A stretch of DNA of 64,000 bases from Aliikangiella coralliicola (GTDB lineage: Bacteria; Pseudomonadota; Gammaproteobacteria; Enterobacterales; Kangiellaceae), in NCBI RefSeq assembly GCF_007004725.1, contig NZ_ML660163.1, positions 514,915 through 578,914 on the forward strand, given 5' to 3'. Numbering within the stretch: the first letter of the stretch is position 1; each line of letters opens with the position of its first letter. Positions 28,900 through 53,754 of the stretch are shown one piece after another. Position numbers and translations under genes: made by a program. The notes under the pieces were generated by a model, which saw only the letters and a list, made by a program, of their open reading frames with translations, was not told the origin of the DNA and searched no databases.

Positions 28900-29586
28900 T
28901 TATTTTCTCCAACTTCGCATTTCAATAAATAAATCATTTTTAGTCGCACTCCTAAATTCCTTTAACTCTGAATCTGTCGGTAATGGCAAAACTTCCTCTT
29001 CCCCTGTTTTATAAGCATTCTTTATATAATTATTTGCCAGCGCGTTAAATTCTTTAATAAAATCAGCGTACAGCTCCTGCTTTTGTATACCAACCATGAA
29101 TAAATTTGTCTCTTCAGAGTTATATTTCGCCATAAATAGCTCACAAGGAACATGGCTAATATTCGCCACTTCTCCTCGAACTATTAATGACTTTGAATTA
29201 GTAATATTTTGAAAACGCTTAATCCAGTCACGTACAGTGCTAACGGAAATATCTTTAATGACAACCTGTTTCAAATTGGATCCATTAATAATAATAATAC
29301 CGCTTTCATCAGAACTACCTAAAGCGATAAAACTATATCTCGCTTGAGATTCTGCCCCCGACTTTAAAACAATAAAATTTTCTATAGCCATATCAACTGA
29401 GCTAACTGCATCGGCTGTTTTTTGTAAAGAGGGATAATTAATATCCCATCCAGCAGCACAACGGTTAAGAATAGGAATATCACTGTGATCTTTTAGCTCT
29501 TGAATAGATGACTCATTCGAACAAGAAGACAGTATCATTCCAACAAATAAGCTAACAACAAAACTGAAGAAATATTTGTTCCACAT
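28900..29586 (-). CDS. Lipoprotein, candidate immunity partner of RHS1
   Basis: The product (228 residues from ATG 29586) begins MWNKYFFSFVVSLFVGMI and has a lipobox LSSC at about residues 20-23, so it is probably a membrane-anchored lipoprotein. No domain is recognised. The ATG shares a base with the RHS1 stop (TGATG), a tight translational coupling. A longer frame to 29610 would place arginines upstream of a good signal peptide and is less likely. Immunity proteins to exported toxins often follow their toxin gene directly and face the periplasm; immunity against the M91-like tip is a hypothesis based on position and localisation only. Confidence 0.75.
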   Translation of the reverse strand: MWNKYFFSFVVSLFVGMILSSCSNESSIQELKDHSDIPILNRCAAGWDINYPSLQKTADAVSSVDMAIENFIVLKSGAESQARYSFIALGSSDESGIIIINGSNLKQVVIKDISVSTVRDWIKRFQNITNSKSLIVRGEVANISHVPCELFMAKYNSEETNLFMVGIQKQELYADFIKEFNALANNYIKNAYKTGEEEVLPLPTDSELKEFRSATKNDLFIEMRSWRK

Positions 29587-35500: not shown

Positions 35501-36875
35501 ATTCGAAAAGAATACTATTACCGCTAACATCAACAACCGCTTTCAGTAAATAAGCTTTAGCAACCGACTTGGTCGCCGAACCACTCGGCTCATTAAACGC
35601 ATCGGCACCAGTTTCCGCGTTACTCCAATAATCCTTTAAGGTAATCGCCTGAGTACCTGTAACCGCATCGACATAGCCATAATAATGTACTTCACCAGAC
35701 TTGGTCTCAACGGTAAATCCTAACGGCCCTGCAGTGTTTGCATTTCCATAAGCGGCTATTTTCGAAAAACCTTCAATTTCGGTGTGATACGTTGCACCAC
35801 CCTGACCATGTGTACCGGATTTCAGCACCAGACGCTGGCCATTCAGACAGAAAGGATCGCTATTAGTTAAACTAATCCCGCTAATTTCATTATCCTGGGC
35901 CAGCGTTTTCGGGCAACGAGTAATCGCACCACCGGCAGATAACGACCAACCAATTCCAAGTACACCATCACCTCCTTGGCTGGAGTAATTCAATGAAATT
36001 TGCGGAGAAACGCCAGCAGTGCCTGTTGGTACCGAAATAGGAATAGAATAAGTTGCAGCCCCCTGTTCGTTGACCCGGAATTCACCGGCAGTCGTCCCCA
36101 GCGGTGTGCCTGTAGGTTGATTATTTAAATTGACTGAGTCGACATAATCAACATTTGATCCTGACATATAGGCATATTCATCAGCCTGGCCAGAAATATT
36201 ACTGGTCGCCTGAATGTCATCGACGCCATCGTTATTCAAATCTGCAATTGTCAGACTATAGGCCGCCGCGGACCAGTCCATGCCGTGATCACCATCATTG
36301 AGCGTTTGACTGACGGTACCGTTGCTTTCAAGAATATAAGTGGTATCTCCCGTGTTTTTACCCTGCAATAAGATTTCTTGATAACCATCACCATCAAAAT
36401 CACCAAAGTGAACAACAAAATTGTCAGGATCAGCATCCAGTTCGAAACTGGTATAGGAAGCAACCCCACTTGCATTCCAGGAAACAATAACATTAGGTAG
36501 GGTAGGCGAAATGACTATTGGGATAATGATTTCGCCATGCAGAAGAACGATATTTTTTTTACCCAACAATAAAAGCTCATCGCCGGGATTGGAATTGAGA
36601 TCAGCACTAAAAGCACCATAAGCGCCGGCACTCCAATCAAGAATATCAGGCACGTCAGGATGAGTGCTTACCCAACTTCGGTGAAAGCCAGAAATACTGC
36701 CACCAACTTTGGGCGTTAAGCTAGAGGTTTCGCCAGAGTTAAGTGCTTGATTGAAGGCATCTTGATCACCATCGCCGTTAAAGTCACCAAGGATTTCATT
36801 AGTCGCGCCAGCGACGCCTGAAAAAATGGTGAATAACATTATACATAAGACAATGAGCCCCTTAAGGTTTTTCAT
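29586..36875 (-). CDS. Secreted SpvB/RHS polymorphic toxin with M91-like metallopeptidase tip
   Basis: This 2429-residue protein starts with a Sec signal peptide (1-24). FG-GAP/VCBS-type Ca-binding repeats follow (GDFNGDGDQD, ADLNNDGVDD), then an SpvB domain (about 245-430; GWSLSAGGAITRCP), a second FG-GAP block (about 620-1000), a TcdB-middle-like region and many YD/RHS repeats. The RHS core YDANIGRFMQADPHVQ...NRYSYVLNNPLSMTDPSG ends near 2093. The variable 336-residue tail has a Gly/Ala-rich hydrophobic stretch, then HELYH (H2359-E2360-H2363) with a downstream Glu (E2392 in MQEVYATRFTNLIR). This resembles M91/NleD zinc metallopeptidases. Upstream spacing is 615 bases, with AGAGG before the ATG. 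It lacks the operator shared by RHS2. An inter-bacterial or anti-eukaryote toxin is likely; the target is unknown. Confidence 0.88.
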   Translation of the reverse strand: MKNLKGLIVLCIMLFTIFSGVAGATNEILGDFNGDGDQDAFNQALNSGETSSLTPKVGGSISGFHRSWVSTHPDVPDILDWSAGAYGAFSADLNSNPGDELLLLGKKNIVLLHGEIIIPIVISPTLPNVIVSWNASGVASYTSFELDADPDNFVVHFGDFDGDGYQEILLQGKNTGDTTYILESNGTVSQTLNDGDHGMDWSAAAYSLTIADLNNDGVDDIQATSNISGQADEYAYMSGSNVDYVDSVNLNNQPTGTPLGTTAGEFRVNEQGAATYSIPISVPTGTAGVSPQISLNYSSQGGDGVLGIGWSLSAGGAITRCPKTLAQDNEISGISLTNSDPFCLNGQRLVLKSGTHGQGGATYHTEIEGFSKIAAYGNANTAGPLGFTVETKSGEVHYYGYVDAVTGTQAITLKDYWSNAETGADAFNEPSGSATKSVAKAYLLKAVVDVSGNSILFEYNENNGDSNLARVSYGGNGTLSQTPYAYVEANYSTKVNAAIKAGFINGTSFLNDQLLNNITVKLHGQEYRKYLFAYDTPAYAEDNYMLQSVQECVGTDCYPATAFEWERPVPASQSTQEYCEYEPGTPTTCWDVTVTTGFNPFGNKSNKLRNAPNHYSSRVLDLNGDGFSDIVYLENSYWKVALGPSFTSTRTLTNIGNSNSQYLLTLDYNGDGRRDLLVANSASSSWHVVSFENWIDQVQSCEPMPNGGQFCETHDVPKDLKVASIGKTAIGFDGKSQVLDIDGDGLEDIVYQNGNALYWYKNNGGSFANGVVLSNFSSSSSNAFLNGRTEKHTANMKNAAGVDINGDGRSDLIFKVTDTTSTCYVNGNSVPAGSRNECENDIGGTWSSYTTTNWKLYTSTGTSLVEKQSLGNYEDVRVADLNGDGLTDLLQYSSSSNWSYRLSNGQTFLGSKSLPIGATTDTFKDNSYFIDLNKDGAADFLKATTNTHWAVYLSEYKNAEEVQYISRGTLTREADAVAQFGDADGDGKLDLFEGKNGSHGWRISYAPKSSKPDFVIKKITNGFGANTYINYRPMTDSNVYISNSAADDVDHKTFSPMSGMALVSSVQSDTSATTKVEVKYQYGGFLVHRQGRGMLGFELARTIDATTGIKTETTYDQSFPFIGMPLTTRQYTATNVELNNATNVLHTGPTSNGGVFPYIASSSEYAYSIGTDNTRYQINRTDSSFGYDPHGNLTSSTVIVSDHNANNALTTSTNNIYGTSTWEKEKGRLSQTTVTKSRSGSTQSRKTTFGYYPQTHTSVPGLLKWSTVWPDSSTKSLTTEYEYDSFGNKNKVTKTGAENSDGSNTQARIASSSYSSNGRLLDYSIDAAGVRTDYRYNGVKANSLNGRISSTSSMVNGLAFTKQYNSFGQATVESAPGSASVNTHREFCTSVSCGNGGAHYRIRAVQSGAPEKQAYFDFLGREIETRTKNFSGGWTKITRSYDSRGREDKVYEPFIGTIGSFYSQSTYDLFDRVIQIKQPKGELVKTEYYGLRTETIDAKGYRTKSWKNEQGELDRVEDVRGNKLDYTYEAYGNLKMVVATNSSGSVTTRASNIFDAYGNKTQSVDQDKGTWNYAHNAFGELVVQTTAKGDQSYLDYDVAGRLIRRYENEGTSCWNYSNSTGRLLNEKMFDGSNKSLSECGTDSTANFQKNYIYDNDGRINKTDTIISSVNSHVNDTYTTSTSFDSYGRVSSVTYPNNLSITNVYQNGYLDQLKNTQTGRLYQNVDAMNVYGQVTQVTYANGAKETIGYRSEDGKVMNHQLNIGSTVKHYLNYGYDNNHNINLREHHFYDRGFTHWKENLTYDNLNRLDFRDATVYDNSDLTSEFQTDQNYDYDDWGNLTYRYGTGYYKYDGTKKNRLLSIHQTSGFGGTQYYGMSYDGNGNIVNDGAGRTFSYFSFDKVNRISQSNQYSEFLYGTDRSRYFKHDRRTENSQTTDYYTTYIGAYEKIHRIGGGKSAITEHKVSLGNIVITERSNGTDDEHYLHKDHLGSPISITDKSASVAQQFVYDPWGKQTKIYQASDFASLVYSQPTNRGYTGHEHIRDLNIIHMNGRIYDANIGRFMQADPHVQSPGNFQNYNRYSYVLNNPLSMTDPSGFFFKKLFKAIKKYWKQIVSIVLTVYLGPLGAFIGNYLTTGSLRGAIIGGLTSMIGGVDFGGFVANGIVGGVISKAQGGNFGRGFMSAGVGSALGGAVKGVKSAWGKVIASAVVGGTVSRISGGKFANGAYSAAFATALTADWSTKNGFDGNQKAGPSGGEKTSGSIKVGENTFSYTTEGPEGYADSISQQLSSISTTEAGRELLTGLAVSEGEFTFKYRANTFAVETPFFGNDITIHFDPNYSVPFYSTASAGYTAYENSTFALAHELYHAWNNSTASWFGGSDARKIGGRVIGINMQEVYATRFTNLIRTQAGLNYIRTHYNTKRGQVCVDGDGC

Positions 36876-37490: not shown

Positions 37491-39755
37491 TTATTTTTCT
37501 AAAGTTTGTCGAATATTTTCCGCAAGCATTCTCTCATACTCATCGCCTCCTAAACCGCTCTGAATAAAGAGTTGCCGCATAGAATAATAGGCAAATGGCT
37601 CTGCGTTCGAATCAGGTAACCAACCATCAGCCATTAATCCGCGCAGCATATCTTTTACTTTTTCTGTTTGTCCACGAAAGACCAACCAGTCAGCGACATA
37701 TAAGTCCTGAGGGTATTCAAGGTTCGCTAATTGGCTATCAATCTGGCTTGCAATTCCTTGCCAGTTTTTATCACTCGACTTAGCCCGTAGTAATTGCACG
37801 TAAAAGATTCCAAGATAAAAATTATTTTTCGTTATTTCGACTTTTTCTAACTTAAATTCAGGAACTGCTCTTAAGAAAAGTCGTTCTGCCTCTTCATACT
37901 GCCCACTAAAAAACAACGACTGTGCATAAGGCATATCGAATTTATTGTTGTCGTGGTGCAATTGACGTCTTTGGTTAAAGACTTTTGCCGCAGCGTCAAA
38001 CTCTCCAAGTGCTACTTTTAATGTTGCCTTCACATACAGCGTGAAAGACGGATTCAGATTTTTTCCCTCAAACTCTTCAACAATCTGACTAACACGATCA
38101 TGCTTACCGAGAGATAAAAGAACCTGCGCCTGAGTCAATCGATAATTGGGTTGCCGTTCTAACATAAGCGGGTTCTCGTCAGCCCAATTTAAAAAAGCCT
38201 TTGCTCGCGAAGTTGTCAATGGAAAAAAATCAAGTTGCTCAACGGGGCGATTATGATAATCAGGCTCAAGAGTCAGTGCTCGCTGATAATAATACTCAGC
38301 TTGAGAGACTTTGCGCAGGTTTAAAAAGGAGTACGCCAGACTTCGATTAATAATCGGTGACATTGGCGATAGTTCATAAGCCTGTTTGGTCATCTCCAAA
38401 GCCTTGTCGTATTGTCCCATATCCCTGATTAGATTGCCGTACCACATGTAAACAAATGGATAATTCGGTGATAGCTGAACAGCGCGATCAAATAGCTTCT
38501 CAGCTTCTTCACGCTGTCCCTCGCTATTCAAAAGAAAGGCTTTGGCGGCAATAGCTTGTCCAAGATCAGGTTGCTTGGACAAAGCACTATCCAGCAGCGG
38601 TTTACATTTCCTTAAAGCCTGTGACAGATTCAAGTCTGAATAAATATATAAAAAATGATAAGTTTCGCAAAGTGCGACAGAAGCGAGTGGAAATAATTTT
38701 TCTTCGAGTTGCAACTGTTCAAGAATTGATTTTGCTTGTTCAAGACTGTTTACCGTTCTTTGCTCCCACAAATGGCGGGCCAACAAATATTGATCGAAAA
38801 CACGCTTTTCTACAGCACTTTCAGAAAAGGTATTGACTGATTGCTGCTTTTGAAACAGGGCAAGCAAATCTTCAACAATCAAATCCTGTAAGCCAAACAA
38901 ATCCCTTTCGCTACCTTCAAATACCTTCGCCCAAACGACTTCTTTATTGTTGACGTTCTCAAGTTGCAGAAATACGCGAACTTTTCCAGCTTGCTGGCTG
39001 ATGCGGCCTCTTAGAATTGTTTGCGACTCAACAACGTCATTTTCCGACTGCAGATTAATGATTTTAAGCCCACCAATATGCATCAGCTGAGTTAACAACA
39101 CGTCGTTCAAAGCGGATAGTCGATCAGATTGACTATGTTGCTCGAAACGTAGTTTGACAAACGCCACCGAGGAAATTTTGTTAATTTTCAAATCAGCGGT
39201 CGGAGTTTGCTGCTCAATCGTTGCATCATCTGGCCCCAATTCATACAAGAACAATAGCCCAACAAGCAAAATAGCTGGCAGTAATACACCTAGCCAACGA
39301 TAGCGGCCGGTCACTTTCGCTTTATTTTCATTAGTTACTTTTGGCTGCGCGTCTGGCGTGGTTGCTGTTGGTGATGGCAGTTCAACCGGCACAATTAACC
39401 GATATCCTTTTCCTGAGACTCTTTCAATAAACTGTTTCTGTTTGCCGGTATCACCAAGCGCTTTACGCAGTTGTGCAACCGCCTGATAAAGCGAGCTGTC
39501 AGAAACAACCTGTCCAGGCCAGATTTTCTCAAATAGTAGTTCCTGACTGACCGGCTCTCCAGCCTTCTCAGCCAGACAAACCAGTAATGTCATCACTTTA
39601 GGAACGAGAACGACTTCTTGCCTGTCTGCTTTAATTTCATCAGCATTAGACTTATCATTTCCGCAACCGCTATCAGCCAGCTCGTTTCGGCTAATGCGAT
39701 TAAGTGCAGGTTCTACTGTCCACTTTCCTAGTTTGAATGTTGATTGAGCGCTCAA
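37491..39755 (-). CDS. CadC-like winged-helix regulator with TM and TPR domains
   Basis: The 754-residue protein has an N-terminal OmpR/CadC-type winged-helix DNA-binding domain (about 45-125; SDSSLYQAVAQLRKALGD...FIERVSGKGYRLIVPVE). A proline/threonine linker, one TM helix (154-171) and a large periplasmic part with TPR-like repeats (about 355-650; KALEMTKQAYELSPMSP) follow. Such proteins are one-component membrane-bound transcription factors that sense outside signals. It is divergent from the amidohydrolase gene (214-base gap), which is a likely target, and lies upstream of RHS1 in the same orientation. Confidence 0.87.
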   Translation of the reverse strand: MSAQSTFKLGKWTVEPALNRISRNELADSGCGNDKSNADEIKADRQEVVLVPKVMTLLVCLAEKAGEPVSQELLFEKIWPGQVVSDSSLYQAVAQLRKALGDTGKQKQFIERVSGKGYRLIVPVELPSPTATTPDAQPKVTNENKAKVTGRYRWLGVLLPAILLVGLLFLYELGPDDATIEQQTPTADLKINKISSVAFVKLRFEQHSQSDRLSALNDVLLTQLMHIGGLKIINLQSENDVVESQTILRGRISQQAGKVRVFLQLENVNNKEVVWAKVFEGSERDLFGLQDLIVEDLLALFQKQQSVNTFSESAVEKRVFDQYLLARHLWEQRTVNSLEQAKSILEQLQLEEKLFPLASVALCETYHFLYIYSDLNLSQALRKCKPLLDSALSKQPDLGQAIAAKAFLLNSEGQREEAEKLFDRAVQLSPNYPFVYMWYGNLIRDMGQYDKALEMTKQAYELSPMSPIINRSLAYSFLNLRKVSQAEYYYQRALTLEPDYHNRPVEQLDFFPLTTSRAKAFLNWADENPLMLERQPNYRLTQAQVLLSLGKHDRVSQIVEEFEGKNLNPSFTLYVKATLKVALGEFDAAAKVFNQRRQLHHDNNKFDMPYAQSLFFSGQYEEAERLFLRAVPEFKLEKVEITKNNFYLGIFYVQLLRAKSSDKNWQGIASQIDSQLANLEYPQDLYVADWLVFRGQTEKVKDMLRGLMADGWLPDSNAEPFAYYSMRQLFIQSGLGGDEYERMLAENIRQTLEK

Positions 39756-41642: not shown

Positions 41643-41939
41643 TCACTTCAAATATTTTTTCTCATGAAATAATTGATAGTGAACTGTCTTTTTTACTAAT
41701 TTAGGTATGCCAAACTCATAACTCATCACCCAATCAGTAGTAACCTTGGTCGCAGGACAGCTCACATATCCAGTTGAACTTTCGTGAGTATCCACCAATG
41801 GAATAGTAAAAACATTGACAGGCATATATTCACATTCAGTAACGTAGGTGTTACCACCTGTTTGTACTGCACTAGCATTTATTGAAAGCAAGATGGAACT
41901 GGCCATTGTAATAGATGTTATAGTTTTTAAAAGTTTCAT
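41643..41939 (-). CDS. Small secreted Cys protein (copy 1)
   Basis: The 98-residue product from ATG 41939 (MKLLKTITSITMASSIL) has a signal peptide ending near ASA. A mature part of about 75 residues contains GGNTYVTECEY and CPATK, with two cysteines that could form one disulfide. No family is recognised. An AAGGA Shine-Dalgarno is present. A close paralogue lies at 42353, sharing leader, length and terminator. Upstream at 42053-42080 is the 21-bp-spaced direct-repeat operator also found at the RHS2 promoter, which ties this gene to the RHS2 regulon. Confidence 0.8.
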   Translation of the reverse strand: MKLLKTITSITMASSILLSINASAVQTGGNTYVTECEYMPVNVFTIPLVDTHESSTGYVSCPATKVTTDWVMSYEFGIPKLVKKTVHYQLFHEKKYLK

Positions 41940-42052
41940 ATAAAAATCCTTATTGATTAGTTTAGAAAAAAAATTAATTAGATTTAAATCAAAATTTGTC
42001 ACTAATTAACAAGGTGATTTTTTCAGAAATGACACACAAAAGATTTTAAATA

Positions 42053-42080
42053 TTCGCCAAAAAGTAGTACATATTCGCCA
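42053..42080 (-). promoter_or_regulatory. Direct-repeat operator, AraC-type spacing (site 1)
   Basis: TTCGCCA at 42053-42059 and again at 42074-42080, exactly 21 bases apart, with AAAAGTAGTACATA between. The whole 30-base element matches the RHS2 site (48191-48220) at 27 positions. On the minus strand a TAAAAT -10-like sequence follows 11 bases after the proximal TGGCGAA, and copy 1 of the small secreted gene begins about 113 bases downstream. The rest of the 41940-42352 gap contains only this and the terminator at 42288. Confidence 0.65.
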
Positions 42081-42287
42081 CATGAGTGATAACTGCATAA
42101 TTTTGCTCCCCCCCACAAGAACCTCACTTAGTGGCAAGGCACAATTAGTATCTAAGTCTAAACTTGTTACAGTCATTATTTTTGAGTTTCAGTTCTCAGC
42201 TACTTTGCGATTAATAAAGTAACTGTAGATAAAAGGGGAGCAATTGTCGTTGGCAATAGGAAATACAGGCAAAACTCAATGACTAAA

Positions 42288-42323
42288 AACCTCGAACAAT
42301 CTTAGTGAGATTTGTCGAGGCTT
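42288..42323. terminator. Terminator after copy 2
   Basis: AACCTCGA (42288-42295) pairs with TCGAGG (42315-42320), followed by CTTAATT. It is a diverged duplicate of the hairpin at 41570-41606. It lies about 30 bases beyond the stop of the copy 2 gene on the minus strand, whose transcript would end with a T-rich stretch. Confidence 0.5.
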
Positions 42324-42352
42324 AATTAGTTGTCTGTCGAGAATGATGATTG

Positions 42353-42649
42353 TCACTTCATATATTTTTTCTCATAAAACAAATGATAATGAACTGCTTT
42401 TCTCACGTACTCGACTTCTCCGCTATCAAAATTATGCACGATAGTATTCACAATTTTAGTTGCAGGACAAGACTTGTAACCATTCGTACTTTCAAGGGTA
42501 TCGACCAGAGGAATGGTAAACTCACCGACCGGCATGTATTCGCATTCAGTGACATAGGTTTTTCCTCCAGTTTGCACAGCATTGGTATTAATTGAAAATA
42601 GAATAGAGCCAGCTATCGCAAAAGAAGTTATAGTTTTTAAAAGTTTCAT
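42353..42649 (-). CDS. Small secreted Cys protein (copy 2)
   Basis: The 98-residue product from ATG 42649 (MKLLKTITSFAIAGSIL) is a tandem paralogue of the 41643 protein. It has the same length, signal peptide, GGKTYVTECEYMPVG start of the mature part and CPATK motif, and a Lys-rich YEKKYMK end. It has no operator of its own. It lies 108 bases downstream of the two-TM gene and RHS2 on the same strand with no terminator seen between, so it may be transcribed from the RHS2 promoter. A role beside RHS2 is inferred. Confidence 0.8.
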   Translation of the reverse strand: MKLLKTITSFAIAGSILFSINTNAVQTGGKTYVTECEYMPVGEFTIPLVDTLESTNGYKSCPATKIVNTIVHNFDSGEVEYVRKAVHYHLFYEKKYMK

Positions 42650-42757
42650 ATAGAAATCCTTATTAATTACTTTGGCATTGAACTCATTAACAATTGGTTT
42701 TTGCAAGTGTAATTCTTACAAACTCCAATTTTGTATTACTCGTGAATTGACTAGCAA

Positions 42758-42976
42758 CTAGCTCCTTCCACGTAAATATATAATAAGATCAATAACCACT
42801 GTTACTATTGAAACAAGGAAGCAGGTGATTGTGGTAACTATCAGAAATTCAAAAAAATCAGTTTCCCACTTCCAAATATCAAATACAAAATCAAGTATCC
42901 AAACACTAAGAAAACTCAAGAAAAATAGACTCACAAAGTACTTTGTATAGAGTAATTTTAATTTAGTCTTTTTCAT
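42758..42976 (-). CDS. Small two-TM membrane protein, candidate RHS2 immunity
   Basis: This 72-residue protein has two hydrophobic helices (about residues 13-31 and 44-66) separated by a short acidic/aromatic loop (DIWKWETDFFE). Its ATG lies inside the last 14 bases of RHS2 in another frame, so translation is coupled to that toxin-like gene. No domain is recognised. A small membrane protein directly after an RHS gene with a hydrophobic tip is the classic position for an immunity protein against a membrane-active toxin, but this is inferred from position alone. Confidence 0.6.
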   Translation of the reverse strand: MKKTKLKLLYTKYFVSLFFLSFLSVWILDFVFDIWKWETDFFEFLIVTTITCFLVSIVTVVIDLIIYLRGRS

Positions 42977-45900
42977 CTTTAAAATAATCCATTACAGTAT
43001 TTTTTACGTCACTACCAGCGCCCACAATATCGGCCCCCAAGTCAGTAACAAACTTTCCGAAAGCGTTAGGAGTACCTTTTTTTCCAAATAAAACATTATT
43101 AGCGCCAACTGTCGCATTGCTTAACCCTTCTCCAACCACAGAACCCAAACCTCCAAAAATAGCCCCTTCAGTGGCAGAACTCCCTAATGCATCGAGCGAG
43201 GGGAAACTTCCATCCGAATCACCCTGTAAACCATCAACTAGGCTATTTGTGACAGTTCCTAGAGCACCTAAAGTCGCACCAACAGCTGCATTCCCACCAG
43301 CATTCACAGCCATGCTTTGAGCAGCTGTCAGCCCCATACCTGCGACACTCGCGCCAATTGACTCAGCTAATCCCACTCCAGTAGCACCAACAGCCGCTGC
43401 AACCGCAACTTGCGTATAATCAACATTATCAAAGCCTTTTGTTAAGCCTTGAGCAACGAAATTAACCCCGCCTCCAACGAGTGCACCAAATAAAACCCAT
43501 GGTGCCTCACCATTAGGATCTGTAAATTTATAAGGATTGTTATTAGCATAAGCAAACCTGTTAAAAGTATATACATCACGATAGCCTACTGGATCATTCG
43601 AATAAAACCTTCCAATAACAGGATCATAATATCGAGCCTGCATGTAGTTAAGTCCAAGACTCTTATCAAACTTGTGGCCTGTATACCCAACCTCATCTTT
43701 CGGCGTTTCAATACTTTCACCAAATGGCTGGTAATGCATATTTGCAGTAACCGTTCCAGATGAATTAGATTCCGCAGCCGGACTTCCTAAAAAGTCTGTG
43801 TGCACATAAGTGATTGTTGAACCTTTTTTGCGAGCGACTAACTTTTTACCCAGGTGATAATAATTAACATGAGTTCCGTTGATTTTTCGGTAAACCAACT
43901 GTCCATCACGTGAATACATTGAGTAGCTAGTTCCTTGGTCATCAACAGTTTTAACACGCTTACCATTACCATCATAAACATAAGAACCGGCATCCGATGA
44001 ATACATTTGCTCAGCAGTGTTGTAATTAAAAGTATGAACACCATTGCTAGTCACATTACCTTTATCGTCATACTGGAATGAACGCGATAAATAGCCGGTC
44101 ACTGAAGCAAGCTGTTTATTGCTGTTGTAATGATAATTAAGAGACTTATTACCGATTTTGTAGAAAGTGATATTCCCCATCGAATCATAAGCGACCTCAC
44201 CAGTACCAGAATAACTGTCAGTGATGCGATCTAGTCGATCAAGCCCATCATAAGTCGCTCTAAAATCATAAACATTTTTATTGCTGGAAATTTGATCATC
44301 CCAGAAAGTTAGATTGCTATTCGCGTCATATGTAAATGCTTGTTTAATTGCGTAGACATCGACAGCCCCATCAGGTCGTCTAGCGGCAACCGCTCTACTC
44401 GGCGCTGAGATTGTTGCCGACGTTGTCGCTGTACCGGCAGACTCCAAACTCCGAGTTGCTATAGGCGGATTCTTAATGGGATCGATTCCAATCGGTTTAA
44501 TGCCTATCGGATCAATTGGTGTCAGACCACCGCCACCACCACCTTGTTGAGTGATTTTGTCGTAGGTAGTTGATGGTAACCCTGAAGTGTTTTGGGTCAT
44601 CTTATAGTAATAGTCATTACCGTACAGATGTGATTTTAGTGCGCCATTTGCATGGTAAGTCGCGTGCGTCGCATGAGCTCCTGCAGTGGTTGGCTGTCCT
44701 AGCGCATTAGGCACGAATGCGATTTTAGTACCACTTGGATATCTTAAGTCACTTAAATGGCCATTACTGTTATAGAAATAATCCAAAACAAAATTATTTG
44801 AATCAACCGATAATGTTTCTTTCTCTAATAACTTCTCACTGTTGTATGTGTAAGCGGTAGTAACATTACCCGCAGTTAATGTTTTTAACAGATTATTTTT
44901 GTCATAAACAAAAGTTTTATCCGGGCTATTGTCAGCATAATTAATACTACGCACGTTTCCTAAATTATCGTATGCATAGGTGGCTTTATCGCTTGAACTC
45001 ACTGAATTATCACAAGAACCAGTGCTGCTTGATACTGAACTTCCTTTTGCGCTCCACAACAACTCGTTGAGTGCGTTATAAGAGACCGCAGTATTGCCTA
45101 CATCTGGACGAGTTGTTTTACAGTGTCTTTGATAACCATCATAAACACGACGCTCGGTAATACCTCCTTGAGTTATCGAAGTTAAATTGCCAAAAATATT
45201 ATAGTTAAGAGTGGTATTGGTATTTTCTGGCGCAGCAATATAAGTCGCCAAACTTTGACTCGGCGAACCATAAGCCAAATACGTAGTGGTCGTTTGATGA
45301 CCTTTATTATCATTAACACGAACTCGATTACCTGATAGATAACTGTAGCCGATGGAACCAGAGCTCGTATTGTCATCTACATTGACGACTCTTCCCAAAG
45401 CATCATATTTCGTTTCTCGGCCATAGTTAGTCGTTGAACTCAGCCAGGGATTACTTTGGTAAGTCGGTCGATTAAATGCATCGTAACTTGTTCGCGTATA
45501 GCGAGTCGTTGACGATTTAGCTTTATCCCACTCTTTGATCATTCGAGGACGAAGTAAATTATCAAAGTAGGTTATTTTTTGATAGTTACCGCGCGTAATG
45601 GTTTGTTTTAGCATGCCGCTAAAAACGTAATTTAGACCGTCACTGCCTGACGTTGTCGTGTAACCAATAGTGGTATTTAACCAACGGTTATCACAAGGAT
45701 CAATTAAAGTTAAACGACCAATAGAATTGTAACTATATCTGGTACAGTGGTTTTCAAAATCTGTTACTTTGGTAACCAGGCCATCATTGTTAACTTCCAG
45801 ATAAGCATATTGGCTAGTGGTACTTTTACTTTGAGGCGTACCAATAGTTTGCGCTTTACCCCGCTTGTAATTTGAAAACTCAACCCATCGGCTTGCACTA

Positions 45901-48104
45901 TTATAACTTGCCCCATTGTATTGAACTCTTTTCGGCAAACCGGCTTGCACACCAGAGGTATGATACGATTGATTTCTTTTATACCAACGACCAAATTCAT
46001 AATGATAATTCGGTTGCGACTTATACGACCCTGTTGCACTGTGATAAGTGGTTTTAGAAACTTCCGTATAATTCGAATCACTTGATGAAACTTCTGTGCG
46101 GCTATGACGACCTAAAAGATTGTAGGTTTTATCATGATTGTAATAAGTTTTGGTGTACTTCTTTTTATTACTAAAATCATTATACTCGTATGTTTTCTGC
46201 GGCAAATCATAAACATCAAAATCGCTATAAGTCGTCGTGTATACATCTCCAATTGTGACAAAGTTTTCCACTTTTTTTGAAGTTAATTGCTTTCTTGAGG
46301 CAGCGTGACCTTTAGTGATATCGGCCTCGGTAAACGCATCAGCGGTGAGGGAAATTGCGGTATACATTAGAGGCTTACCATGATACTCACCATCAGTATA
46401 CTGGTACGAACTACGCTTTAATAACGAGCCATGCTCATTGTAAACTTCGCTATATAAAAGGTTTCCTGAAGTCTTGCCATAGCGACGATCAAAATACTGA
46501 ATCGTTTTACTATTATCAGGATTAATCGTGGTCGTCGACTTAAGATGTGCAGTTTCAACGCCAGAAACACCAAGACTGAGTCGGTGGCTAGAATTAATAC
46601 TATCACCTTGATAAACACCGTCATTGTCGGAATAGTCATAATTCCAAATATACTCTTCGCCATCCGACATCGTTAAAGTTTTAGTGGATATAGCAAATAA
46701 GTTCGAAATTCTTGGAATAAAATACGTGTCGTAGTTGCGGCGTAATGGATTAGGACGACGAATTTTAGGCACTTCAGACTGACCCTGGCACACTTCTTCC
46801 AGAACAAACTTTCCTTGCATTCCTTCTGGATGCGTCATTTCGATAAAGTCACGCGTACCACTCTCAATACACTGGATCCCGTGATGAGGCGCCTGTGCAT
46901 GCTCGGCAACGTTATTTAAGATCCATAGACTATTGTTGCTGGTTTTATCGTGACTATAACTCCACTCTTTATTATCCGGACGAACAACCGTTTTCAGTGT
47001 TTTGATTCGATAATCATCATACCGATAATTCCATGTCTTGCCGTTTGCAGAAATCGAACTGACTCGGTTACCGGAATAATTAACCGTTATGGTACGTCCG
47101 TCATTGGATGTTATCTGCTTAAGACGACCATCACTGTGATAACTATATTTAACCCAGTTACCGAAACGATCCTCCACGCGGGTGGCCTGCATAAATACAA
47201 AATATTGTGGATATTGCACAGATTCGTCAGGGTCAGACGGCCCCACAGCTTCCATAGGACAAGGTCGAGAGGATCCATTACATGGGGTTAAACTCATCAC
47301 TGGAGATAAGTTAAACGGCTTTAGTGATTTAACCGTTCGCTGCTTACCCATGGTGTAAACCACACCGTTATCGAGCGTGATCTTAAAACCTTCGGTCCCG
47401 TCGCTGTTAGTGATACAGGTCACCTTCCAGTTACGATTGTTATAGCGCTTATAGCTTCCGGCCTTTTCCGTGAACTTGGCCGAACCCTGCCCAGGAATCG
47501 AAACGGTATCGCCATTCCAATAACTATCTTTGCTCCCCTGATAGGCTTGGGTTTGATTGTCACCGAGCCCATAGGAGACATATTTAGAAAATGTCGGGTT
47601 AGAGTTTAAGCGGCGCGAACAAGCCTTGCCCACAGCCCAATAGGCATTCTTCGCATTGCCTGATTTGTCAGTAATGTAAGTTGAGCGAACATGAGGAATC
47701 GATAAACTCCAGTTCTCGAATTCACGCGTTTCACGAAACCAGGAATCAGGATCGGAAAGTGTTCGAGTTATCGTGACAGGAAGTCCCGAGTTTCCGGGAA
47801 TACTGATATCAGTCTGAGAAAATGAAACACTACCCGATGACGGATCAATTTGATCACCAAACAAATCTGTCGTCAGCGTTGGAATCTCGGGCGTGATGTT
47901 ATTTTGCTCATGGAAGTTATAGCCATAATCTTTCACTTCTTCAGGTGGTGCATTGCCGCCGAAACCACCACCAGGCCCGAAACTATCATTTGCATAAGAT
48001 AGCTGGCCCGCAAATAAAAGACATGAACTTAGTAATAAACGTGGTATTGAAAGTCTTTGTCGCATATCGCGATGTGGACTTTTATTGGAAGGATTTGATC
48101 CCAT
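42963..48104 (-). CDS. Secreted RHS-repeat protein RHS2 with Gly/Ala-rich hydrophobic tip
   Basis: The 1713-residue protein starts at ATG 48104 with AAGGAG well spaced. A late hydrophobic segment (about 20-38, ending LSYAND) looks like a signal peptide with a long n-region. A Gly/Phe-rich linker, an N-terminal RHS-associated region and dozens of YD repeats (GNLTSI, YDNLGNV) follow. The core ARYYDPVIGRFYSNDP...FAYANNNPYKFTDPNG ends near 1535. The 178-residue tail is Gly/Ala/Val-rich with no nuclease or protease motif. A low-complexity insert GGGGGGLTPIDPIGIKPIG sits near residue 1185, inside the repeat region. No SpvB domain is present, unlike RHS1. The promoter carries the 21-bp direct-repeat operator. 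Membrane disruption, adhesion or an orphan tip are all possible. Confidence 0.85.
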   Translation of the reverse strand: MGSNPSNKSPHRDMRQRLSIPRLLLSSCLLFAGQLSYANDSFGPGGGFGGNAPPEEVKDYGYNFHEQNNITPEIPTLTTDLFGDQIDPSSGSVSFSQTDISIPGNSGLPVTITRTLSDPDSWFRETREFENWSLSIPHVRSTYITDKSGNAKNAYWAVGKACSRRLNSNPTFSKYVSYGLGDNQTQAYQGSKDSYWNGDTVSIPGQGSAKFTEKAGSYKRYNNRNWKVTCITNSDGTEGFKITLDNGVVYTMGKQRTVKSLKPFNLSPVMSLTPCNGSSRPCPMEAVGPSDPDESVQYPQYFVFMQATRVEDRFGNWVKYSYHSDGRLKQITSNDGRTITVNYSGNRVSSISANGKTWNYRYDDYRIKTLKTVVRPDNKEWSYSHDKTSNNSLWILNNVAEHAQAPHHGIQCIESGTRDFIEMTHPEGMQGKFVLEEVCQGQSEVPKIRRPNPLRRNYDTYFIPRISNLFAISTKTLTMSDGEEYIWNYDYSDNDGVYQGDSINSSHRLSLGVSGVETAHLKSTTTINPDNSKTIQYFDRRYGKTSGNLLYSEVYNEHGSLLKRSSYQYTDGEYHGKPLMYTAISLTADAFTEADITKGHAASRKQLTSKKVENFVTIGDVYTTTYSDFDVYDLPQKTYEYNDFSNKKKYTKTYYNHDKTYNLLGRHSRTEVSSSDSNYTEVSKTTYHSATGSYKSQPNYHYEFGRWYKRNQSYHTSGVQAGLPKRVQYNGASYNSASRWVEFSNYKRGKAQTIGTPQSKSTTSQYAYLEVNNDGLVTKVTDFENHCTRYSYNSIGRLTLIDPCDNRWLNTTIGYTTTSGSDGLNYVFSGMLKQTITRGNYQKITYFDNLLRPRMIKEWDKAKSSTTRYTRTSYDAFNRPTYQSNPWLSSTTNYGRETKYDALGRVVNVDDNTSSGSIGYSYLSGNRVRVNDNKGHQTTTTYLAYGSPSQSLATYIAAPENTNTTLNYNIFGNLTSITQGGITERRVYDGYQRHCKTTRPDVGNTAVSYNALNELLWSAKGSSVSSSTGSCDNSVSSSDKATYAYDNLGNVRSINYADNSPDKTFVYDKNNLLKTLTAGNVTTAYTYNSEKLLEKETLSVDSNNFVLDYFYNSNGHLSDLRYPSGTKIAFVPNALGQPTTAGAHATHATYHANGALKSHLYGNDYYYKMTQNTSGLPSTTYDKITQQGGGGGGLTPIDPIGIKPIGIDPIKNPPIATRSLESAGTATTSATISAPSRAVAARRPDGAVDVYAIKQAFTYDANSNLTFWDDQISSNKNVYDFRATYDGLDRLDRITDSYSGTGEVAYDSMGNITFYKIGNKSLNYHYNSNKQLASVTGYLSRSFQYDDKGNVTSNGVHTFNYNTAEQMYSSDAGSYVYDGNGKRVKTVDDQGTSYSMYSRDGQLVYRKINGTHVNYYHLGKKLVARKKGSTITYVHTDFLGSPAAESNSSGTVTANMHYQPFGESIETPKDEVGYTGHKFDKSLGLNYMQARYYDPVIGRFYSNDPVGYRDVYTFNRFAYANNNPYKFTDPNGEAPWVLFGALVGGGVNFVAQGLTKGFDNVDYTQVAVAAAVGATGVGLAESIGASVAGMGLTAAQSMAVNAGGNAAVGATLGALGTVTNSLVDGLQGDSDGSFPSLDALGSSATEGAIFGGLGSVVGEGLSNATVGANNVLFGKKGTPNAFGKFVTDLGADIVGAGSDVKNTVMDYFKDEKD

Positions 48105-48179
48105 AAAAAGCTCCTTAATAAATAGAGTAAATAAAACACTGCGCTTATTTTTCTCTATGTTATTAAGAGGCCTTAATTA

Positions 48180-48220
48180 ACTATATTTCATATCCGCCAA
48201 AAACTAGTACAAATTCGCCA
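48180..48220 (-). promoter_or_regulatory. RHS2 promoter with direct-repeat operator (site 2)
   Basis: TCCGCCA (48193-48199) and TTCGCCA (48214-48220) lie 21 bases apart, with AAAACTAGTACAAA between, nearly identical to site 1 at 42053. On the minus strand a -10-like TATAGT (complement of 48180-48185) follows and the -35 region is poor. The proximal box would overlap the -35, as at AraC-activated promoters. RHS2 starts 75-90 bases downstream. A single inverted half-site TGGCGAA occurs at 48276-48282. Confidence 0.65.
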
Positions 48221-48287
48221 TCAAAATTAACCCCTTACAAAACAATAAGTTAGAAAACATGAAGTTCAGTTAAAATGGCGAATACAA

Positions 48288-49231: not shown

Positions 49232-49627
49232 ATGAAACTGAACCACTTATACGGAGCAATACTGATATTTTGCTTACTTTCATTTCCGAAAGCTGCGGAA
49301 GCTGGCGGGCCAACTTATACAAAATGTGTCTATACTCATAACTATGTTGGTAATGACCCAGAAATGACATCCCATGCAGTTAACGGAGTTTTTCACGTTC
49401 GTCACGTGGCGCCAGGTAAGAACTGTCCTCTTCCACCGGAAGAGATTATTCACCCCAAAAAAATGGTTGACGGCAGAATAGTGAACACTCAATTACCCCA
49501 CACTTTTAATTATTCTCACTCTCAAGGCAATACAGTGATTTATCGGGGTAATACCGACAAAAAAGAAGAATGTTTAATTGATGCTGCGGGCAAACTCGTC
49601 TATGGCGAGAATGTGAAATTCGAATAA
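49232..49627 (+). CDS. Small secreted Cys protein next to the hybrid sensor
   Basis: The 131-residue product has a signal peptide (1-24, ending AEA). Its mature part begins GGPTYTKCVYTHNY and contains NCPLPPEE and EECLID. The GGxTYxxxCxY...CP pattern recalls the two small secreted proteins at 41643 and 42353, although the overall identity looks low. GAGGGAAG precedes the ATG. The hybrid two-component gene begins 27 bases later, so the two are probably co-transcribed; a signal-related or ligand role for this protein is conceivable but unproven. Confidence 0.72.
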   Translation: MKLNHLYGAILIFCLLSFPKAAEAGGPTYTKCVYTHNYVGNDPEMTSHAVNGVFHVRHVAPGKNCPLPPEEIIHPKKMVDGRIVNTQLPHTFNYSHSQGNTVIYRGNTDKKEECLIDAAGKLVYGENVKFE

Positions 49628-49653: not shown

Positions 49654-52600
49654 ATGACAAAAAATACGCTGCGACAGATTGCCTCACTGTTTTTAGTCAT
49701 CTCTTTCTCCGCTACAGCGAATAACCCGCGCTTTCGATCTCTCGATATTAATGACGGTCTTCCTTTTAACTCTGTCAGGTCTTTAGCTACCGACCATCTC
49801 GGTTATATCTGGATTGGAACTGAGCTTGGTTTAGCCAGTTTCGACGGCTACACCTTACAAAAATACCTTGCCGATAAAAATAACCCAAATTCCATCGCCG
49901 ACCCCTACATTCTGGATATTGAACTCGACAGCAATAATAATCTATGGGTAACCAGCGGTGAAAACGGATTAAGTCGCTATAACCGGGCAACCGATAATTT
50001 CACGGTTTTTAGGCATGATCCCCAAAATAGTAACAGTCTGAGTGCGAATACAATTAACGCACTTCAACACGACGATAATGGAATACTGTGGGTCGCGACC
50101 CAAAATGGCCTGGATAGATTTGACACCTTGAATAACCAGTTTACTCACTATTCCCATGATGAATCTAACCTGGAATCATTGCCGAGTAACCGGATAAGAA
50201 CTTTAGCTAAAGCTCAAAGCGGCGAACTCTATATTGGCTCAAGCAAGGGATTGTCGTATTTTCATGCTGAGACAAACAGCTTCAAAACAGTCAAGTTAAA
50301 AGAAGGTAATCAACCTGTCGTCAGAACAATTTCAGAAGATGGAAATGGCAAGCTCTGGTTAGGAACTCATCAAGGCTTATACACTTATGACCCCGCTACA
50401 GCAACCTCAAGTAAGTTTGAAATTGATTCGGTTAAATATGTTTTATCGTCTCTGATTGATTCAGAAAACAATATTTGGATAGGCACTTTTCAAAACGGCA
50501 TATATCGCATTGACGAGTCGAAAAAAATCATTAATTTTCGTTCGGATAAAAGCAACGCCCACTCCCTGACGGACAATGCAATTATTAGTTTATTACAGGA
50601 TCATTCAGGCATGATCTGGGCAGGTTCTTATACTGCAGGCGTTAACTACTTCGACCCGTTAACCATTGAGTTTGGCTCTTTCGATAACTCGATTAACAGC
50701 TTTCACTGCTTGCCTTCAAACGATTTTCGTAGCGTTTACCCTATTAATAATGAGGTTGTCTGGCTAGGTACCGACTCGGGGTTGGTAAAATTAAATTTAA
50801 ATGAAAAAAGCTGCTCGAAGTTACAGCATGATTCAAATGACAACAACACGATTTCACATGACGAAATATATGCCATATCAAAAGGTAGTGACGAAACTTA
50901 CTGGCTCGGCACCTCAGACGGTCTAGATAAACTTCACTCTGAAGACGATAAAATCACCCGGTATGGACACTTATTTGATGAAGCAGCCATCTTTAAAATA
51001 ATCAACCTTCAAGATAGCTTGCTACTCGCCGCCGATAACGGCCTGTACAAGTTCAATAAGTCTAGCGAAACAGCTCGGCGAATAAGTTATCAAGATGGAA
51101 AAATTTTTGACCAAAATATTAACACTGTTTCAATCGACTCCAACGGCACTGTCTGGATCGCCAGTTCCGCCGGTCTGTATTACGCTGACTCACAACTCGA
51201 TTCGGTAGAACAAGCGCCGGTTTCGATCAAAGAGCTGAAAGACAAAGCCATTCGTTCATTGTCAATCGACCAAGAGGAAAATATCTGGCTAACTTATGAC
51301 GGTGAAGGATTGTATCTTTACGAGCGCAACTCAGGAAAGTTACAAGCGGTTGGAAACTCTATGGGGCTATATTTAAACCATGGCTTTTCGGGTTTATTTA
51401 ACGACCAGTCCCATAACATCTGGATGTTAACCAAAACACAAGGGTTATATAAAATTGACCCAGTTGAAAAGAGTTTCATCAATTACAAAGCGGCAGACGG
51501 ACTGCATTCCGAATTATTTAACCTCGGCGCCTTCGGCCAATTTCCAGATGGCAGACTTATCTTTGGCGGCCGGACAGGACTCAATATTTTTCATCCTGAA
51601 AAAATTAGCCTTAATAACACTCTTCCGAAAGTGTCGATTACTCAACTCAAAAAATTTGGCGAACCTGTCACGATTGAAAAGAGTCAGGCCGAAAAAGAAG
51701 CGATCGCAGATGCAGATGAAATCAATTTGTCTTACCTCGACTCAAATTTTGGGTTTGATTTTATTGCCACCCATTACCCCGCCCCTGAAAAAATCCAATA
51801 TGCCTACTTGCTTGAGGGACTTGATAACAACTGGCATTACACCAATGCAACCAACAGAGGCATTACTTACGACGGGCTTAACGCGGGAGAGTATACCTTT
51901 CGGCTAAAAGCCAAAAGTAAAAATGGCATTTGGAGTGACGACAACGTCGCGTTAAGAATATATAAAACACCCGCCCCCTGGGAAACCTGGTGGGCTATTA
52001 GTCTTTACATTATCGCCTTAGTTTTAGCGATTATACTGATCATACGAAAAAGGACTCAAATACTGGCTGAAAGAGCCGTTGCTCTCGAAAAAACAGTGAA
52101 ACAGCGAACACATGAGCTTGTTCTGGAAAAAAACAAAGTTGAACAACTTCTATCAAATAAAAATGAAGAGTTTGCGAATGTTTCACATGAATTTAGAACG
52201 CCGTTGACTTTGATACTTGGGCCAATTGCACAATTACTCAATACCAATAAAAACCCACAAGAACTCGATCGCCTGAATGTTATTCAGAGAAATGGATATC
52301 GACTACTCCGCATGGTTGATCAACTCCTTAACCTGGAAACTTTTCGCGTAAAGTCAATTACAGAACGCATACCACAGGCAATTGGAAAAAATATTCAGCT
52401 TATCGCAGAGGCGTTTATCGACCTGGCCAATGAAAAAAATATCACTATAAAAATAATAAACCGAGAAAAAATAAACTTTGAGTTCACTCAAGATGCGATG
52501 GAAAAAATTGTTCTTAATTTACTTTCTAATGCGCTGAAATATACTAAGCCTGGTGGCGAAATAATCATTGAGACGCTTCGCAAACCAGGTGACGGCTCTC

Positions 52601-53754
52601 AATTAAACGAATACCAGATAAAAGTAACAGATACCGGCATAGGTATCCCTGAAAGTAAACTTGACTCAATATTCGAACGCTATAATCGTGTTCTTAACGA
52701 ATACAGCGAACAAGTCACTGGTGCAGGAATTGGATTGGCATTAGTTAAAGAACTCGTTGAAGCACATCACGGTAGGATAAGCGTTGAGAGCACAGTAGGA
52801 GCAGGGACGACTTTCACCGTTAGCTTGCCAATCATCGGTGAAGTTGACAACTTAAACATTGAAGCCAATAAGAATAACGAAATTCTAGCGATGGAACTAG
52901 AGAGCATTCACAACCAATTCTTACCCCTTTCTGTCAGCCATGAAAAATACCTGTCTCATAACCAGCATTCAACTAACATTTTGATCATCGAAGATAACCC
53001 CGATATGCGTCGATACATCGAAAGTTGCCTATCGGGTATCTACAATATTCTGGTCGCTAAAAATGGAGAAGAAGGGGTTAGCTTAGCAAAACAAGAAGTT
53101 CCTGATTTAATTATTAGTGACATCATGATGCCTAAAATGGACGGCTATCAAGTCACTCGCACAATAAGACAGTGCGAAATAACCAATCACATTCCGATCA
53201 TTTTGCTCACCGCGCGAAGCGACCGAGAAAGCAAACTGAAAGGATGGTACGAGAAAGCTGACGAATATTTGACTAAACCTTTTGACCTTCAAGAACTGAA
53301 ACTCCGTATTAGTAATTTACTGAATATTCGAGACATATTAAAGAAGCGCTTAACCGAAACCGCATTTAAAGAACAGCCGAAGACAGAGATCAAAGACGAA
53401 CAAGATATTGATACTAACAAAGAGATTCAACAACAAGAATTTATTCATCATATTAACTCTTGTTTAGAAGGCATTTTTACCAATAGTGAATTAACCGTTC
53501 CGCAAATGGCAAAAGCAGTTAAGATGAGTGAACGTCAGTTTTTCAGAAAACTGAAAAATATAACGGATATGTCTCCTGTCGAATATTTACGGCGTTACCG
53601 GCTAGAAAAAGCAAAAGATTTGTTACAAGCTGGAAAATCAGCGAATTTCTCAGCTTACGAGGTGGGTTTCTCTTCACAAAGTTATTTTGGACGGTGCTTT
53701 AAGGCACAGTTTGGCATTTCGCCTGGCGAGTTTAAGAAATCGGCAAAGACATAG
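49654..53754 (+). CDS. Hybrid two-component system protein (HTCS) with AraC output
   Basis: This 1366-residue single-chain two-component system has, in order, a signal peptide (1-22) and periplasmic Reg_prop beta-propeller repeats (about 28-650; WIGTELGLASFDGY, WVATQNGLDRFD). A Y_Y_Y domain (about 690-770), a TM helix (777-797), HisKA with H845 (ANVSHEFRTPLT) and HATPase (NLLSNALKYT, TDTGIGIPES) follow. A receiver with D1156 (LIISDIMMPKMDG) and a C-terminal AraC HTH (about 1265-1360; QMAKAVKMSERQFFRKLK) complete it. HTCS proteins are best known from Bacteroidetes, where they sense glycans. Here it lies beside the RHS2 regulon, whose promoters bear AraC-type 21-bp direct repeats, so it is the best candidate regulator. 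Confidence 0.92.
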   Translation: MTKNTLRQIASLFLVISFSATANNPRFRSLDINDGLPFNSVRSLATDHLGYIWIGTELGLASFDGYTLQKYLADKNNPNSIADPYILDIELDSNNNLWVTSGENGLSRYNRATDNFTVFRHDPQNSNSLSANTINALQHDDNGILWVATQNGLDRFDTLNNQFTHYSHDESNLESLPSNRIRTLAKAQSGELYIGSSKGLSYFHAETNSFKTVKLKEGNQPVVRTISEDGNGKLWLGTHQGLYTYDPATATSSKFEIDSVKYVLSSLIDSENNIWIGTFQNGIYRIDESKKIINFRSDKSNAHSLTDNAIISLLQDHSGMIWAGSYTAGVNYFDPLTIEFGSFDNSINSFHCLPSNDFRSVYPINNEVVWLGTDSGLVKLNLNEKSCSKLQHDSNDNNTISHDEIYAISKGSDETYWLGTSDGLDKLHSEDDKITRYGHLFDEAAIFKIINLQDSLLLAADNGLYKFNKSSETARRISYQDGKIFDQNINTVSIDSNGTVWIASSAGLYYADSQLDSVEQAPVSIKELKDKAIRSLSIDQEENIWLTYDGEGLYLYERNSGKLQAVGNSMGLYLNHGFSGLFNDQSHNIWMLTKTQGLYKIDPVEKSFINYKAADGLHSELFNLGAFGQFPDGRLIFGGRTGLNIFHPEKISLNNTLPKVSITQLKKFGEPVTIEKSQAEKEAIADADEINLSYLDSNFGFDFIATHYPAPEKIQYAYLLEGLDNNWHYTNATNRGITYDGLNAGEYTFRLKAKSKNGIWSDDNVALRIYKTPAPWETWWAISLYIIALVLAIILIIRKRTQILAERAVALEKTVKQRTHELVLEKNKVEQLLSNKNEEFANVSHEFRTPLTLILGPIAQLLNTNKNPQELDRLNVIQRNGYRLLRMVDQLLNLETFRVKSITERIPQAIGKNIQLIAEAFIDLANEKNITIKIINREKINFEFTQDAMEKIVLNLLSNALKYTKPGGEIIIETLRKPGDGSQLNEYQIKVTDTGIGIPESKLDSIFERYNRVLNEYSEQVTGAGIGLALVKELVEAHHGRISVESTVGAGTTFTVSLPIIGEVDNLNIEANKNNEILAMELESIHNQFLPLSVSHEKYLSHNQHSTNILIIEDNPDMRRYIESCLSGIYNILVAKNGEEGVSLAKQEVPDLIISDIMMPKMDGYQVTRTIRQCEITNHIPIILLTARSDRESKLKGWYEKADEYLTKPFDLQELKLRISNLLNIRDILKKRLTETAFKEQPKTEIKDEQDIDTNKEIQQQEFIHHINSCLEGIFTNSELTVPQMAKAVKMSERQFFRKLKNITDMSPVEYLRRYRLEKAKDLLQAGKSANFSAYEVGFSSQSYFGRCFKAQFGISPGEFKKSAKT

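Follow-up and report, generated by a model that had tools for sequence, protein, structure and literature searches.

Gene content of the locus

A 64,000-nucleotide stretch of the Aliikangiella coralliicola genome (Kangiellaceae; RefSeq assembly GCF_007004725.1, contig NZ_ML660163.1, forward-strand positions 514,915 to 578,914; hereafter the window, to which all plain coordinates refer) contains two near-identical direct-repeat elements, one upstream of a gene for a secreted Rhs-repeat protein (RHS2) and the other upstream of a gene for a small secreted protein (gene A). The first-pass annotation had read them as the operators of an RHS2 regulon controlled by a nearby hybrid two-component system (HTCS) protein with AraC-type output, and we weighed this reading against the rest of the genome (G000 in our survey) and the genomes of relatives. 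The features concerned are as follows.

41643..41939, minus strand: gene A, small secreted protein of 98 amino acids (aa) without a Pfam match; homologs in G004 and G008; tandem paralog gene B
42044..42081, minus strand: predicted operator of gene A, half-sites 42065-42081 and 42044-42060
42353..42649, minus strand: gene B, 98-aa paralog of gene A (66% identical), downstream of RHS2
42963..48104, minus strand: RHS2, secreted Rhs-repeat protein of 1713 aa (PF05593, E 2.2e-19)
48157..48162, minus strand: predicted -10 hexamer of RHS2 (TAACAT), 21 bp past the operator, at the offset peak of 34 sites
48184..48221, minus strand: predicted operator of RHS2, two 17-bp half-sites (48205-48221 and 48184-48200) spaced 21 bp
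49232..49627, plus strand: small secreted protein of 131 aa, encoded directly before the HTCS
49654..53754, plus strand: HTCS, the proposed regulator (Reg_prop, Y_Y_Y, HisKA, HATPase_c, Response_reg, HTH_18, HTH_AraC)

The protein encoded from 49654 unites a propeller sensor, HisKA, HATPase, receiver and AraC domain in a single chain, as is characteristic of the HTCS class. The products of gene B and the 131-aa gene likewise lack Pfam matches; C36 and C61-P62 (gene A numbering) are common to all eight small secreted proteins that were aligned, namely A, B, the 131-aa protein, the homologs from G004 and G008 and the small proteins encoded before the HTCS in G004, G008 and G011 (loci L041, L042, L043 and L045). 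Between the RHS2 stop and gene B, the place expected of an immunity gene, lies a 58-aa frame with a GTG start and two transmembrane segments (42758-42934, minus strand).

A pair of 21-bp direct repeats upstream of RHS2 and gene A

Read on the minus strand, the core elements are TGGCGAATATGTACTACTTTTTGGCGAATAT (42050-42080, gene A) and TGGCGAATTTGTACTAGTTTTTGGCGGATAT (48190-48220, RHS2), both direct repeats spaced 21 bp. They are identical at 28 of 31 positions on the coding strand, spacer included, in agreement with the near-identity described earlier (27 of 30), and a BLAST alignment of the two upstream regions (E ~2e-6) is confined to these 31 bp with no extension. The 38-bp element of gene A lies 104 bp from the likely ATG (41939) and that of RHS2 79 bp from the start at 48104. 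The TTCGCCA pairs originally reported 21 bp apart at both genes are present on the plus strand at gene A (42053-42059 and 42074-42080) and in the second RHS2 box (48214-48220), whereas the first RHS2 box (48193-48199) reads TCCGCCA, a small error in that description that leaves three of the four boxes as TTCGCCA. In a plain repeat scan of the 300 bp upstream of gene A, 21 was the best of the distances 10 to 44 and was equalled in none of 300 shuffles. The same scan gave no clear 21-bp repeat upstream of RHS1 (29586-36875, minus strand), gene B, or the genes for a 230-aa protein and the 131-aa protein; for gene B the weight matrix described below found no operator either.

A single TTCGCCA carries little meaning, since it occurs 27 times in the window against 9.3 expected; the spaced pair TTCGCCA-N10..18-TTCGCCA occurs once against 0.01 expected. 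Across the 7.04-Mb genome, TGGCGNATNT-N11-TGGCGNATNT has two perfect matches (the RHS2 and gene A elements), one match with one mismatch and 12 with two, while the reversed pattern has none. The genome scan suggested in the first-pass annotation thus finds the perfect pair at these two places only, and the random scatter of the motif that was named there as contrary evidence is not seen; a wider regulon based on the exact window motif was rejected, there being two perfect copies in the whole genome. We conclude that the element pair is a real operator pair.

A survey of the genus yielded four one-mismatch matches, in two of six other species, and a DNA search of plasmids with the A-B region gave no match. 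A pattern of 20 fixed positions taken from both window sites, with up to three mismatches allowed in 61 genomes, matched perfectly three times, twice here and once in the Kangiellaceae metagenome-assembled genome DC_out97 (G008). Among five matches of the relaxed searches that were read, one in Pleionea sp. CnH1-48 (G011:C42) was shown to belong to the class described below, two were rejected as lying inside long frames (G021:C36 and G000:C2:663843) and a fourth as preceding a transporter gene (G004:C163). The fifth, TGGCGTATTTGTACTAATTTCTGTCG at L078:5819-5844 (G002:C1, hit at 936818), is found some 130 bp upstream of a 666-aa gene whose start resembles a signal peptide; it is a candidate member of the class.

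Predicted operators of the same class in other Kangiellaceae genomes

Variant searches recovered sites of two further kinds, TGGCCGAAT in G011 and G012 and TGTCCGA in the A. coralliicola genome itself. The pattern TGTCCGAWTNNTNNTAN5TGTCCGAWTNNTNNTA, with up to three mismatches, gave 25 matches in nine of 25 genomes of the family and none in 16 genomes of other families; its reversed control gave four. None of the 24 matches evaluated (L204 was left out) falls in a long reading frame, the longest stop-to-stop frame over a site being 171 codons, and 19 of them lie upstream of a frame with a signal-peptide-like start according to a crude hydropathy rule, which L209, L190, L192, L193 and L194 failed; for two of the 19 (L197 and L210) the frame scored was a 67-aa one ahead of a giant gene. 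In A. coralliicola the genes read at such sites include four giants (1020, 2474, 3915 and 4001 aa) as well as a fifth, partial one (1896 aa). Ig-like domains occur in the 1020-aa product, and Rhs, SpvB or TcdB-midN domains in the other four. The 2474-aa protein has a C-terminal YwqJ-deaminase domain and its gene is followed by one of the SUKH-3 immunity family; the 4001-aa gene is followed by a DUF4279 gene. A model search of the same genome, which scored 150 of 1724 candidates, missed known sites and is not a census, gave 15 matches, nine of them intergenic (including all six of full length) and six coding. On these comparisons, the predicted window operators belong to a family-wide class associated with giant Rhs/SpvB and small secreted proteins; of the regulon of two promoters proposed at the outset, the shared operators stand, and its isolation does not.

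Three near-identical operators (L162, L163 and L210; G000 C2:745692, C3:688421 and C10:360289) lie close to three contig ends, where a repeated SpvB/cadherin gene probably breaks the assembly, since the two that were read both precede the beginning of one and the same giant gene. At L165:8015-8094 (G002:C34), TGGCCGTAT is repeated four times in tandem with a spacing of 21 bp ahead of a 164-aa secreted gene, possibly forming a multi-site operator. Two species share the motif variant TGTCCTAAT ahead of the gene for a 409-aa membrane protein (L193 in G014 and L194 in G010), which is either an unexpected target or a chance match.

A weight matrix was built from 25 sites, all outside the window; from the 25 pattern matches, three doubtful ones (L193, L194 and L200) and one identical copy (L202) were left out. 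Within the window it ranked the RHS2 site first (28.5 bits) and the gene A site second (15.9 bits), followed by a position inside RHS1 (8.4 bits), against a maximum of 2.6 bits in the reversed window. Over 474 kb in 26 loci with an HTCS, RHS2 or gene A match, the window included, there were 14 matches of at least 10 bits, three of them training sites, versus one in reversed sequence; eight other loci (128 kb, with L079, L080 and L166 chosen for a weak pattern match) had one versus none. The intergenic DNA of HTCS loci contained ten repeats at distance 21, compared with a mean of 1.9 and a maximum of five at 32 other distances, in a set of ten loci of which one was chosen for its site and with two of the matches overlapping.

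Half-site structure and promoter geometry

In a gap-free alignment of 14 sites, T2, G3, C5, T13, A17, T23, G24, C26 and A38 are invariant. Although the search patterns for these sites ended at column 32, A38 is found in all 14 and T34 in 12 (it is absent from RHS2 and from the orphan site of the second module described below), and within the unselected columns 33-38 these two positions copy A17 and T13, which argues that each repeat is a 17-bp half-site with two blocks. The unit recognised is, by this alignment, the putative two-part half-site TGKC-N7-TNNNA and not a 7-bp box; the earlier TTCGCCA unit was too short, while the spaced repeat itself is retained. TGKC at positions 2-5 with T13/A17 recurs at 23-26 with T34/A38, one helical turn separating the blocks, a form that would suit the two helix-turn-helices of an AraC domain. 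The Escherichia coli araI1-araI2 site has the same 21-bp spacing, with a half-site of TAGC-N7-TCCATA, and resembles the present sites in being a 21-bp direct repeat of two-box 17-bp half-sites with the downstream half-site at -35.

By spacing alone, the repeats would also fit a LytTR response regulator, as LytTR sites are described as two repeats of 9-11 nt separated by 11-13 nt, and thus likewise as direct repeats about 21 bp apart, for example those of YpdB at yhjX (PMC4847170). Judged by the sites, with no search of the genome for LytTR proteins made, binding by such a protein is nevertheless very unlikely: conserved positions, A38 included, form two blocks that together span 17 bp in every 21-bp repeat, more than the 9-11 nt of a LytTR repeat. 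LytTR proteins also have a different DNA-binding fold.

Counted from the last base of the site, a -10 hexamer (>3 bits) occurs at offset 21 in 11 and at offset 22 in four of 34 sites, 15 together, whereas the remaining 58 offsets hold 15 such hexamers altogether and never more than three at any one offset; the peak persists when near-identical flanks are collapsed to 32 sites. Given a -10 at 21-22 and a spacer of 16-18 bp, the -35 position falls partly within the last bases of the downstream half-site, which is the arrangement of class II activation. The sites as a whole show this geometry, RHS2 fits it and gene A does so weakly. The -10-like sequences reported earlier near both elements accordingly differ in quality, with that of RHS2 (TAACAT) upheld and that at the equal offset of gene A (AAAAAT) weak. 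We infer an RHS2 transcription start near 48150.

Conservation with RHS2, gene A and the HTCS

The N-terminal 400 aa of RHS2 are 82% identical in G011 and 68% in G008, and the element is present at all three HTCS-linked RHS2 genes examined (G000, G008 and G011, with orthology of RHS2 and HTCS judged by best match). In G008 the 21-bp direct repeat TTGTCGTGATATTTACAATTATTGGCGTGATTTTTTAA occupies the gap between the HTCS gene and RHS2, and the 20-position core recurs exactly 118 bp upstream of the gene A homolog; among distances 10 to 44, the repeat scan placed 21 best before both RHS2 (0 of 300 shuffles equal) and gene A (0.013). At the G011 RHS2 promoter the window-derived pattern gave nothing and the repeat scan a weak signal; the matrix located a 26.4-bit site before a 193-aa gene that precedes RHS2, adjoining the HTCS. 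Compared with 41 genomes, the 49654 HTCS matched best the HTCS encoded next to RHS2 in G008 (1288 bits) and in G011 (1280 bits), proteins with propeller, kinase, receiver and AraC domains like its own. A G004 contig ends within an HTCS gene, whose first part lies beside the gene A homolog together with a small secreted gene.

These comparisons bear on two further explanations. The window copies have the same orientation, flank RHS2 and gene B and lose their similarity sharply, as might a short duplicated intergenic fragment or a recombination site with no regulatory role; their conservation across genera, their position upstream of secreted genes and the fixed -10 distance make such an origin highly improbable. 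Control by a regulator of the winged-helix (CadC-like) type encoded at 37491-39593 seems just as remote. Both the window and G011 do have a Trans_reg_C gene near RHS2. Of the three further genes on the 10.7-kb G008 contig, however, the two that were scanned yielded no such regulator and the third encodes a 124-aa secreted protein; the C-terminal parts of the window and G011 proteins differ (TPR versus PD40), and the usual repeat of OmpR-type sites is 10-11 bp.

A second module in the same genome

Another HTCS, encoded at G000:C4:122-140 kb, is 43% identical to the 49654 protein over the matched part and has the same four kinds of domain. Two genes for small secreted proteins precede it, and its neighbours also include a giant SpvB/FG-GAP gene and, beyond the giant, an orphan gene for a further small secreted protein. 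Three TTGGC-N16-TTGGC sites precede, respectively, the giant gene, the small genes with the HTCS, and the orphan, so that the layout of the window is repeated with a different half-site, TTGGCACT. Genome-wide, TTGGC-N16-TTGGC has 43 matches compared with a mean of 29 at eight other spacings; as 24 of the 30 examined lie in coding frames and six are intergenic, the TTGGC core alone is not specific.

Proposed regulation

Both window elements probably serve as operators at which an AraC-type activator acts; the likeliest candidate is the 49654-53754 HTCS, which would jointly switch on RHS2 and gene A. The original suggestion that an AraC-type protein acts on 21-bp direct repeats with an HTCS nearby is supported by the half-sites, the fixed -10, the sites of RHS2 relatives beside the best-matching HTCS in two genera and the form of Bacteroides motifs. 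The repeats, their half-site structure, the fixed -10, the conservation and the gene linkage can be read directly from sequence; that the 49654 protein binds here, that it activates rather than represses, and its signal, we infer. Two HTCS AraC domains would bind head-to-tail, one on each 17-bp half-site, within which one helix-turn-helix would read TGKC and the other TNNNA one helical turn on. The promoter has a -10 and no good -35, and with the downstream half-site overlapping the -35 position the bound regulator would recruit RNA polymerase. A signal sensed by the periplasmic propeller would lead through phosphotransfer to the receiver and release of the AraC domain, and RHS2 (with its downstream genes, gene B included if read through) and gene A would then be switched on together.

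Several results weigh against this interpretation. In the plain repeat scan of the 300 bp upstream of RHS2, 21 is not the best distance (0.123 of shuffles equal it, and 15 and 42 score higher), so that recognition of the RHS2 copy depends on its resemblance to other sites, and gene A has a poor -10. Upstream of the 131-aa gene and the HTCS there is no site by repeat scan or matrix, and the same holds for the upstream region of the gene A homolog in G004 and, by the matrix, for the RHS2 homologs of Paraglaciecola (L171 and L172; ~50% identity). The matrix ranking is not wholly independent, as some training sites were found via the window sites and three doubtful matches were excluded, and a model from eight sites of other genomes finds the window sites only at E 1.07 and 2.25. 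The spacing scan gave no repeat at distance 21 for the window itself (site A being uncounted), while 21.6 kb of other loci gave two, a G011 site among them. The matrix also misses the second module (best score in L097, 7.5 bits, elsewhere), which we therefore take to be a divergent variant, recognised from sequence by its spacing and TTGGC core. Finally, six stretches at TGTCCGA-type sites of the A. coralliicola genome have no intact HTCS near the site, one having a remnant AraC frame, so that another AraC-type protein could serve them.

The last point extends to the window, where the operators might be of AraC type and yet be served by a different AraC-family protein or a paralogous HTCS encoded elsewhere in the genome. 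Twelve strong matches to the 49654 HTCS, itself included, were found among the genome candidates scored (15 of 270), the best of the 11 paralogs reaching 1063 bits, below the G008 and G011 proteins; the related TGTCCGA sites are dispersed and for the most part have no HTCS next to them. Against this, the TGGCGAAT type occurs as a perfect pair in this locus only, and in G008 the HTCS directly precedes the operator and RHS2, with two of the three other contig genes scanned giving DUF2167 and no match. We regard a different regulator as unlikely, and the HTCS encoded beside RHS2 as the preferred candidate.

Comparison with known systems

Motifs for the Bacteroides HTCS were predicted by Ravcheev and colleagues. 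They cover 16 of 36 HTCS of B. thetaiotaomicron and are all direct repeats with an average distance of 21 bp, to which the proteins are proposed to bind as dimers along a single face of the DNA at an interval of two turns (PMC3878776). The window sites, direct repeats with two conserved parts about 21 bp apart, share this form, and the Bacteroides regulators are likewise single sensor-kinase-receiver-AraC proteins beside their targets, with paralog groups that have related motifs (PMC3878776). The comparison is one of form and spacing; the half-site here is TGKC-N7-TNNNA. The proposed mechanism is therefore already known in kind, because the Bacteroides HTCS motifs are 21-bp direct repeats. 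The targets differ, being polysaccharide utilisation loci with SusC/SusD in Bacteroides (PMC3878776) and giant Rhs/SpvB and small secreted proteins in these Gammaproteobacteria. Seven proteins of the window were scanned, and no SusC/SusD was among them. The sensing step also sets the present system apart from AraC, which senses arabinose via its own N-terminal domain and loops DNA, whereas a membrane sensor with phosphotransfer would act here.

New are predicted HTCS-type operators in a gammaproteobacterial family, placed before Rhs/SpvB genes instead of polysaccharide loci; among the matches listed in our literature search, in which subscription journals are thinly covered, there was no HTCS control of Rhs genes and there were no such operators in Kangiellaceae. 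The Bacteroides operator rule would thereby extend to another family and to a different kind of target. To our knowledge, Rhs-type giant proteins are widespread and their activating trigger is rarely known. A readable operator (TGKC-N7-TNNNA twice at 21 bp, with a -10 at +21) and a candidate sensor are now available for several giant genes, the co-regulated members can be listed from sequence and tested, and the shared sites suggest a common way of switching on giant secreted-protein genes in this and related bacteria. A more speculative idea, which we hold with considerable doubt, is that the HTCS proteins of Kangiellaceae form a family devoted to switching on giant Rhs/SpvB proteins that act at the surface or as toxins, and that the two-cysteine small secreted proteins encoded next to each HTCS, some of which have their own operator, contribute to the signal it senses. 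If so, feedback, or the recognition of kin and non-kin products, would activate the arsenal in place of a nutrient glycan.

Elsewhere in the window, RHS1 encodes a protein with a C-terminal Peptidase_M91-like domain; its promoter, unlike that of RHS2, has no operator of this class, and a winged-helix/TPR regulator gene lies directly upstream of it.

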